Positions 39,186 to 40,895 of a stretch of 64,000 nt of DNA are shown here, piece by piece. This DNA comes from an uncultured Rhodospirillales bacterium (GTDB taxonomy: Bacteria > Pseudomonadota > Alphaproteobacteria > CAAGCB01 > CAG-977). A program made the position numbers and the translations under genes. The first letter of the stretch is position 1. The number at the start of each line of letters is the position of its first letter. The notes under the pieces were generated by a model. The model was not told the DNA's origin. It did not search any database and saw only the letters and a list, made by a program, of their open reading frames with translations. The stretch is taken from the NCBI GenBank assembly GCA_902777205.1, contig CACYSU010000002.1, positions 1 to 64,000 of the forward strand, read 5' to 3'.

Positions 39186-39617
39186 TCAAACCGATAAACG
39201 GTCCAACCGCTTTTTTTCGGATTTCAGCACGTCTTTCAACGTGATTTCAGCCATGGCCTTGCGGATTTTTTTGTTCAGCCCCGACCACATTTTGCACGCC
39301 GAACAATCGTTCGATTTCGGACAGAACGACTTGTCAACCACACATTCGACGACGGAAACCGTCCCCTCCATGGCCTCGACCACGTCCAGCAAAGTGATTT
39401 CCTTGGGCTGTTTCAACAGCCGCAGCCCGCCTTTCGCCCCGCGCAGGGATTCGATGAACCCCGCTTCGTTCAACGGCAGGATCAGCCGGCTGATGTATTT
39501 TTCGGAAATCTGCTGGGATTCGGCGATTTCCTTCATCAACCGCGGATTTTCCCCGTCGTGCAAAGCCAGATCCAGCAAAATCCGCCAGCCGTAACGTCCT
39601 TTTGTCGATATTTTCAT
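39186..39617 (-). CDS. Rrf2-family transcriptional regulator (IscR/CymR-like)
   Basis: A 143-residue winged-helix regulator. The start MKISTKGRYGWRILLDLA, recognition helix SEKYISRLILPL (about 38-49) and SLRGAKGGLRL (about 57-67) are typical. Four Cys at 92, 99, 105 and 108 sit where IscR-type proteins bind an Fe-S cluster (spacing 6-5-2), so it may sense Fe-S, iron or cysteine status. SD GGAAAGGAT before ATG at 39617. Divergent from a Cys-rich secreted peptide and cysK; the shared 145-base interval holds an inverted repeat that is a likely binding site. Confidence 0.93.
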   Translation of the reverse strand: MKISTKGRYGWRILLDLALHDGENPRLMKEIAESQQISEKYISRLILPLNEAGFIESLRGAKGGLRLLKQPKEITLLDVVEAMEGTVSVVECVVDKSFCPKSNDCSACKMWSGLNKKIRKAMAEITLKDVLKSEKKRLDRLSV

Positions 39618-39667: not shown

Positions 39668-39698
39668 AACCTGAAATTTAATCACTACCAAACAGGTT
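39668..39698. promoter_or_regulatory. Inverted repeat, candidate Rrf2 binding site
   Basis: AACCTG (39668-39673) and CAGGTT (39693-39698) form a perfect six-base inverted repeat separated by 19 A+T-rich bases. The right arm overlaps the -35 box TTGACA (39697-39702) of the peptide gene, so a bound protein would block that promoter; it is also upstream of the regulator's own start. Confidence 0.45.
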
Positions 39699-39725
39699 GA
39701 CATTTTTGAAAAACGGATGTAGCTT
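39697..39725 (+). promoter_or_regulatory. Promoter candidate of the Cys-rich peptide gene
   Basis: Perfect TTGACA (39697-39702), 17 bases, TAGCTT (39720-39725); the -10 box is weak. The start point would be about 30 bases before the ATG at 39762. Confidence 0.45.
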
Positions 39726-39761
39726 AAATAGTGTTTTCACTCTGACAGGAAAGGGATTAAC

Positions 39762-39893
39762 ATGAAAAAGGTTTGTTTGCTGGCTTTTGCCTGTATGCTG
39801 TACGCCTCCGCCGCGTTCGCGGCCTGCGGATGCGGACATCAACCGTGCGGCTGCGGATGCGGCGCGACGGCTGAATGCAACTGCGGAAAGTAA
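39762..39893 (+). CDS. Secreted Cys-rich micropeptide (43 residues)
   Basis: A complete small gene: SD GGAAAGGG, ATG at 39762, signal peptide MKKVCLLAFACMLYASAAFA (20 residues, cleavage after AFA), then a mature peptide of 23 residues with seven Cys in CGCG and CxC patterns (ACGCGHQPCGCGCG, then a final CNCGK) and one His. Nearly one third of the mature residues are Cys, as in metallothioneins; binding of a metal or of sulfur in the periplasm is a natural guess. A perfect 10-bp terminator follows. It lies between an Rrf2 regulator with cluster-type Cys and cysK. No known family recognised; it is too short for most gene callers. Confidence 0.75.
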   Translation: MKKVCLLAFACMLYASAAFAACGCGHQPCGCGCGATAECNCGK

Positions 39894-39911
39894 CGGATTG
39901 AAACGCGATTC

Positions 39912-39943
39912 GGGGCTTTCCGCCGCGGAAAGCCCCTTCTTTT
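39912..39943 (+). terminator. Terminator of the micropeptide gene
   Basis: Perfect stem GGGGCTTTCC (39912-39921) with GGAAAGCCCC (39927-39936), then TTCTTTT. It makes the peptide a separate transcript, with cysK served by partial read-through or its own start. Confidence 0.9.
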
Positions 39944-39965
39944 ATGAAATAAAACGAGGAATAAA

Positions 39966-40895
39966 ATGAAAGTGTTTAAAACTGTTTCGGAACTGGTCGG
40001 CCACACGCCCCTGATGGAATTGGCGCGCTTTGAACAGGCGGAAAATCTGGCCGCGACCGTTCTGGCCAAACTGGAAATGTTCAATCCCGCCGGATCGGTC
40101 AAGGACAGAATCGCCAAAGCGATGATCGACGACGCCGAACAAAAGGGGCTGCTGAAACCGGATTCGGTCATCATCGAACCGACCAGCGGCAACACGGGCA
40201 TCGGGCTGGCGGCGATCGGCGGATCGCGCGGCTATCGCGTCATTTTGACCATGCCCGAAACGATGAGCGTCGAACGCCGCAACCTGTTAAAGGCTTTCGG
40301 CGCGGAACTGGTGCTGACGCCGGGGGCGAAAGGCATGGCCGGCGCGGTTGAAAAGGCCGAGGAACTGGCCAAGGAAATTCCGAACGCCTTTATTCCGGGG
40401 CAATTTGTCAACCCCGCGAACCCCGCGGCGCACATGGCGACGACCGGCCCCGAAATCTGGCAGGACACGGACGGCAAGGTTGATTTCTTTGTCGCGGGCG
40501 TCGGCACGGGCGGCACGCTGTCGGGCGTCGGCGGCTATTTGAAAAAAATGAACCCCGCCGTCAAAGTCGTCGCGGTCGAACCCGACGCGTCCCCGCTGCT
40601 CAGCGAAGGCAAAGCGGGTCCCCACCCGATTCAGGGCATCGGCGCGAACTTCATCCCCGAAACGCTGGACAGGACGGTTTACGACGAAATCATCCGCGTG
40701 ACGGGCGAACAGGCGTTCAAAACCGGCCGTTTTCTGGCGCGCAAAGAAGGGCTGCTGGTCGGCATTTCGTCGGCGGCCGCCGTCTATGCGGCGTCCGAAA
40801 TCGCCAAACGTCCGGAAAACAAAGGCAAAACGATCGTCGCTTTGCTGCCCGACACCGGCGAACGCTACCTGTCCACCCCGATGTTTTCGGAATAA
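39966..40895 (+). CDS. cysK: Cysteine synthase A (O-acetylserine sulfhydrylase)
   Basis: PLP enzyme that joins sulfide and O-acetylserine to make cysteine. In 309 residues: PLP Lys in NPAGSVKDR (about 46), substrate loop [10 protein letters not shown] (about 73-82), phosphate-binding [12 protein letters not shown] (about 178-189) and C-terminal [13 protein letters not shown]. Normal length. SD CGAGG before ATG at 39966, 72 bases behind the micropeptide gene. Placing next to an Rrf2 regulator recalls CymR-type control of cysteine synthesis, where CysK itself signals to CymR; that this happens here is inference. Confidence 0.96.

Follow-up and report, generated by a model that had tools for sequence, protein, structure and literature searches.

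Attenuators of cysteine genes are already known. In Rhodobacterales, the uORFC-8-2 motif upstream of cysS combines a uORF containing Cys codons with an intrinsic terminator, and ribosome-mediated attenuation that senses Cys-tRNA has been proposed for it (PMC8632094). Cys-rich leader peptides precede cys/cbs operons in Actinobacteria; their Cys run lies near the stop codon, and no conserved terminator was found among them (PMC1262725). The mycobacterial polycysteine uORFs are described as acting by translation attenuation in M. smegmatis (Canestrari 2020, as cited in PMC13236596). In Clostridium perfringens, a Cys-specific T-box stands ahead of cysK-cysE and Cys-tRNA charging governs premature termination (PMC2940859). 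CruR and CutF are copper-responsive exported uORF proteins (PMC9426467, PMC9973294).

The locus considered here lies in the window, a 64,000-nt stretch from an uncultured Rhodospirillales genome (G000), where a 43-codon Cys-rich ORF separates a divergent Rrf2-family regulator gene from cysK (Table 1). Like uORFC-8-2, it is an alphaproteobacterial uORF with Cys codons and an intrinsic terminator. However, uORFC-8-2 controls cysS and has tandem Cys codons at 14-15, whereas the present ORF precedes cysK, has eight or nine Cys spread along its length and so falls outside that motif; its peptide has a signal sequence, a feature that the available part of the uORFC-8-2 report does not mention. The actinobacterial leaders are likewise short Cys-rich ORFs before cysteine-synthesis genes, but they belong to another phylum, place the Cys run by the stop codon and, in the sections of the report we drew on, are not said to have a signal peptide. 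The T-box shares premature termination before cysK but binds tRNA directly, without a leader peptide, and Rfam at gathering thresholds gave no match in the window, T-box included. A sequence-only reading of the window, which knew of no described system of this make-up, therefore put the case too strongly in view of the Rhodobacterales and actinobacterial uORFs (PMC8632094, PMC1262725). What sets this locus apart is cysK under an apparent terminator-antiterminator uORF in this alphaproteobacterial lineage, together with a conserved, export-tagged leader peptide.

Table 1. Features of the cysK leader and its surroundings, with positions in the window.
Feature	Positions	Strand	Details and basis
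Rrf2-family regulator (IscR/CymR-like)	39186..39617	-	Cys92/99/105/108; PF02082, 1.6e-37
Predicted promoter of the peptide-cysK transcript	39680..39725	+	Operator-like AATCACTACCAAACAGG overlapping TTGACA (39697-39702), 17-nt spacer, TAGCTT (39720-39725); alignment of nine genomes
Shine-Dalgarno of the leader ORF	39747..39755	+	AGGAAAGGG; SD-like by sequence; the SD of G005 and G006 is purine-rich too
Leader ORF / Cys-rich micropeptide	39762..39893	+	43 aa, nine Cys codons, predicted Sec-type signal peptide 1-20
Putative antiterminator 5' strand	39883..39890	+	GCGGAAAG, codons 41-43 (Cys-Gly-Lys); pairs with 39916-39923
Putative antiterminator inner hairpin	39894..39911	+	Stop codon to terminator; folding
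Intrinsic terminator inside the transcript	39912..39944	+	Stem 39912-39936 and U-rich tail up to 39944; the antiterminator uses the same 5' arm (39916-39923)
cysK, cysteine synthase A (regulated gene)	39966..40895	+	TIGR01139, 450 bits, above cut-off

We consider the 43-codon ORF, on comparative grounds, to be a real gene and not a chance frame, because orthologues occupy the same locus in two relatives and dN is low while dS is high. The orthologues come from two of the six genomes of the genus (G005: 64% identical, G006: 59% identical; match E values 7.5e-13 and 4.2e-10), lie between the divergent Rrf2 gene and cysK, and keep all seven mature Cys, so that the frame and Cys spacing, on whose conservation the sequence-only reading had staked its case, are indeed retained. 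Synonymous differences affect 11-14 of 23-27 shared codons, and dN is 0.18-0.26 with dS above 1 or saturated; by these measures the micropeptide is under protein-level purifying selection. Beyond the genus, we found no convincing homologue in 385 genomes of the class, the weak hits being mostly to the signal peptide, and none in IMG/VR; a scan of GTDB r220 gave, among the matches listed, at least one record whose peptide matches that of G006.

The product translates as MKKVCLLAFACMLYASAAFA followed, past an AFA cleavage site, by the 23-residue mature part ACGCGHQPCGCGCGATAECNCGK, which holds seven Cys and one His as first described. Two further Cys lie in the signal sequence, which has a KK n-region and a hydrophobic core, and the C-terminus is ECNCGK; the peptide is probably exported via Sec. 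Translation, the Shine-Dalgarno sequence, the AFA site and the orthologues all bear out the original call of a 43-codon ORF with SD and signal peptide. A lipoprotein reading was rejected, as relatives carry Phe or Tyr at -2 to the Cys, which makes a poor lipobox. The high Cys density and CxC motifs recall bacterial metallothioneins; unlike these, the micropeptide has no family match (Pfam and NCBIfam up to E 1, PDB sequence search up to E 5, metallothionein families included), carries an export signal and sits inside a cysK leader. In 316 kb of G000, the window included, 25 of 3,120 small frames are Cys-rich and four of the 25 have a terminator-like hairpin downstream; among those four, the leader ORF has the longest stem and is alone in having both an SD and a signal peptide.

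The ORF had been credited with its own promoter, but five relatives without the peptide (G001, G002, G004, G007, and G011) have the same promoter and operator running straight into cysK. We therefore take it to be the cysK promoter, which in G000 belongs, on this comparison, to a peptide-cysK transcript and not to the peptide alone. Its -10 element is poor, and a consensus promoter scanner did not report the TTGACA-17-TAGCTT arrangement. An operator-like element around TAATCACTACTATTTTAGTTGAC (39680-39702) overlaps the -35 and is common, with variation, to nine genomes (G000-G007 and G011). It is likely the binding site of the Rrf2 regulator, whose best solved relatives are 4cic (BadM/Rrf2 family) and CymR (2y75). 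As noted from the sequence originally, the regulator is divergent and has four Cys; Cys92-X6-Cys99-X5-Cys105-X2-Cys108 is conserved at all four positions in nine orthologues. The fourth Cys stands where E. coli IscR has its His ligand. We regard the protein as a candidate Fe-S, CymR-like cysteine regulator.

The downstream gene is, as originally stated, a cysteine synthase gene. Ahead of it, the terminator has an 11-bp stem with a 3-nt loop followed by TTCTTTTA, begins 18 nt past the stop codon, and folds at -19.9 kcal/mol in G000. The "perfect terminator" of the sequence-only reading is thus real as a stem with a tail, but it does not end a free-standing gene: it sits between the ORF and cysK. 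Only about 20 nt separate its tail from the cysK start, leaving no room for a separate cysK promoter, so cysK must, on this layout, be transcribed through the terminator. Strong terminators lie between ORF and cysK in G005 and G006 too, and the five relatives that lack the peptide have, ahead of cysK, no U-tailed hairpin stronger than -7.6 kcal/mol. Since in those five the promoter leads to cysK with no strong terminator on the way, the ORF and terminator appear to form a module within the cysK leader. Few genes seem to be followed directly by a strong intrinsic terminator: a strict search (316 kb of G000 and the relatives' stretches) passed only 13, and against this the one ahead of cysK stands out.

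The final codons of the ORF, TGC GGA AAG, contain a stretch fully complementary to CTTTCCGC in the 5' arm of the terminator. Pairing of the last codons with the arm recurs at the same spacing in all three orthologues, with a stop-to-arm gap of 17-18 nt (G005: CGGAAAG with CTTTCCG, inner 5-bp hairpin TGTTG/CAACA; G006: CGGGAAG with TTTCCCG, inner 5-bp hairpin CGTTG/CAACG). G006 differs in both partners, with CTTTCCCG as its arm and GGG as its Gly codon. The inner hairpins are singly weak (shuffle P of 0.17, 0.06, and 0.04). In each of the three species, the Cys-Gly-Lys codons give the most stable antiterminator of the 16 synonymous encodings for their own arm; the usage-weighted P values for that choice (0.039, 0.038, and 0.017) are not fully independent because of shared ancestry, and the weighting for G006 used G005 usage. 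On a duplex-only score, the G006 choice lies within 0.1 kcal/mol of the best and is not first. None of 13 strictly chosen other gene-terminator pairs from this genome and its relatives pairs as strongly as any orthologue, and one of 32 does in a looser set. The antiterminator of G006 is the weaker one (-12.4, bulged), and shuffled upstream segments equal its pairing in 14% of cases. A covariation count had no power, with four rows only, the decayed G003 among them, and a bracket string fitted to one species.

Folding with a placed ribosome followed the logic of an attenuator. With the ribosome stalled at C21/22 to C31/33, the antiterminator forms before the 3' arm of the terminator is made; its probability under stalls at the middle Cys is 0.97-1.0 in G000 and G005 and 0.5-0.6 in G006. 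With the ribosome at the stop codon, the antiterminator 5' strand is covered in all three, G006 being the weakest case, the antiterminator cannot form and the terminator does. A ribosome halted at either of the final two Cys codons would promote termination. In G005 and G006 the equilibrium favours the terminator, and the switch must therefore be kinetic.

We suggest that the ORF is probably the leader-peptide gene of a ribosome-mediated, Cys-tRNA-sensing attenuator of cysK transcription, based on the following observations: the leader is rich in codons for the regulated amino acid (Cys codons 9/43, 8/42, and 8/41 in the three orthologues, ahead of cysK), an intrinsic terminator lies between the leader and the structural gene, with a shared transcript indicated by the layout, and an alternative antiterminator is available whose 5' strand a ribosome at the stop codon would cover. 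The evidence is computational throughout and comes from three intact orthologues. RNA polymerase would start at the promoter beside the Rrf2 gene and transcribe the leader ORF. With enough Cys-tRNA, the ribosome would read the nine Cys codons to the stop and cover the antiterminator 5' strand, the terminator stem would form and cysK would not be transcribed. Under Cys-tRNA shortage, the ribosome would halt at one of the early or middle Cys codons, and the free strand would pair with the terminator 5' arm around the small inner hairpin, blocking the terminator and allowing cysK to be made. The layout, terminator, complementarity, codon optimality, and conservation are seen in the sequence, whereas we infer stalling, read-through and cysteine as the signal. 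The locus as a whole is best read as attenuation acting on top of an Rrf2-family regulator that sits at the promoter.

The initial proposal was a periplasmic Cys-rich peptide that could buffer metal, sulfide or cysteine. In a rival reading of this kind, a free-standing secreted Cys-rich peptide, metallothionein-like or a redox or sulfide buffer, is the main product, the terminator is partial, peptide mRNA greatly exceeds cysK mRNA and the complementarity is incidental. The signal peptide, kept in three species, agrees with this, as do the retained CGC...CxCGCG...ECxCGK motif and a mature dN of about 0.1-0.24 against a high dS. However, the searches gave the peptide no family match, relatives that keep the promoter and cysK lack the ORF and the strong terminator alike, all three species use the codons best suited to antitermination, and a Cys-costly buffer before a cysteine-making gene would be an odd economy. 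We consider such a buffer improbable as the main function, given also that the 3' end of the ORF is complementary to a terminator in the cysK leader.

A nascent-peptide sensor like CruR or CutF would have the Cys-rich chain bind metal during synthesis or export, alter ribosome pausing and so set cysK expression. These precedents do combine a signal peptide, a Cys motif and a regulatory intergenic RNA before the target, and translation of the uORF controls the next gene (PMC9426467, PMC9973294). They differ from the cysK leader, however: the proteins are longer and carry an arrest motif (RAPP or Pro-rich), the mechanism works through Rho or SD masking, and the genes downstream are copper genes. 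The micropeptide ends without a Pro-containing arrest motif, its 43-residue chain is not long enough to sense while nascent, and the gene that follows is not a metal gene. The ribosomal tunnel holds some 30-40 residues, so that at the stop codon the Cys-rich part would still be inside it and the chain could not sense in the periplasm while being made. We rejected CutF-like sensing during export on length and arrest motif, and think any nascent-chain sensor at this locus very improbable.

In G011, from a sister genus (locus L037), the cysK leader ATGAAAAAGTTCTGTTTTTTAG retains a 7-codon stump, MKKFCFL*, joined to the cysK SD by an apparent deletion, with the ORF body and terminator both gone. 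The G003 leader (L035/L045) is decayed; it lacks any Cys-rich frame that has a start codon and keeps a weak residual hairpin (-6.8 kcal/mol) with a U tail before cysK. A cysK tree, several deeper branches of which are weak, pairs G000 with G011 and G005 with G006; from these groupings, the leader ORF is best read as ancestral in the group and lost repeatedly. The G002 leader (L033/L043) contains a short, unrelated frame, MKGFSVNGFF*, which overlaps a weak hairpin followed by a U-rich tail; this may be a different leader element or may have arisen by chance. Among 28 further alphaproteobacterial cysK loci, none showed a comparable Cys-rich uORF upstream of the gene.

Attenuation alone leaves the conserved signal peptide and the conserved mature residues G23, G32, G34, and E38 unaccounted for. 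As these go beyond what an attenuator needs, the peptide is presumably exported and may act there; they leave room for a secondary function. A stronger version gives equal weight to an attenuator in cis and an exported metallo- or thiol-peptide in trans. This is a subset of the attenuator reading, so the confidence we place in the two overlaps, and we hold it only tentatively, as doubtful. It would account for the attenuator evidence and the protein-level conservation of the Gly and Glu residues together, and peTrpL offers a precedent for a leader peptide with a trans function (PMC7298713). On the other side, the exported product is a putative one, and repeated gene loss suggests dispensability. 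If the dual function is true, cysteine spent on an exported peptide would directly set cysteine synthesis.

With probable attenuation of cysK, what looked like a secreted metallothionein becomes a switch that would sense cysteine and can be put to the test, and attenuation is the first thing to look for when Cys-rich micropeptides lie close to cysteine genes. Should the exported peptide have a role outside the cytoplasm as well, this would be a rare case of a leader peptide that is at once a regulator and a secreted product.
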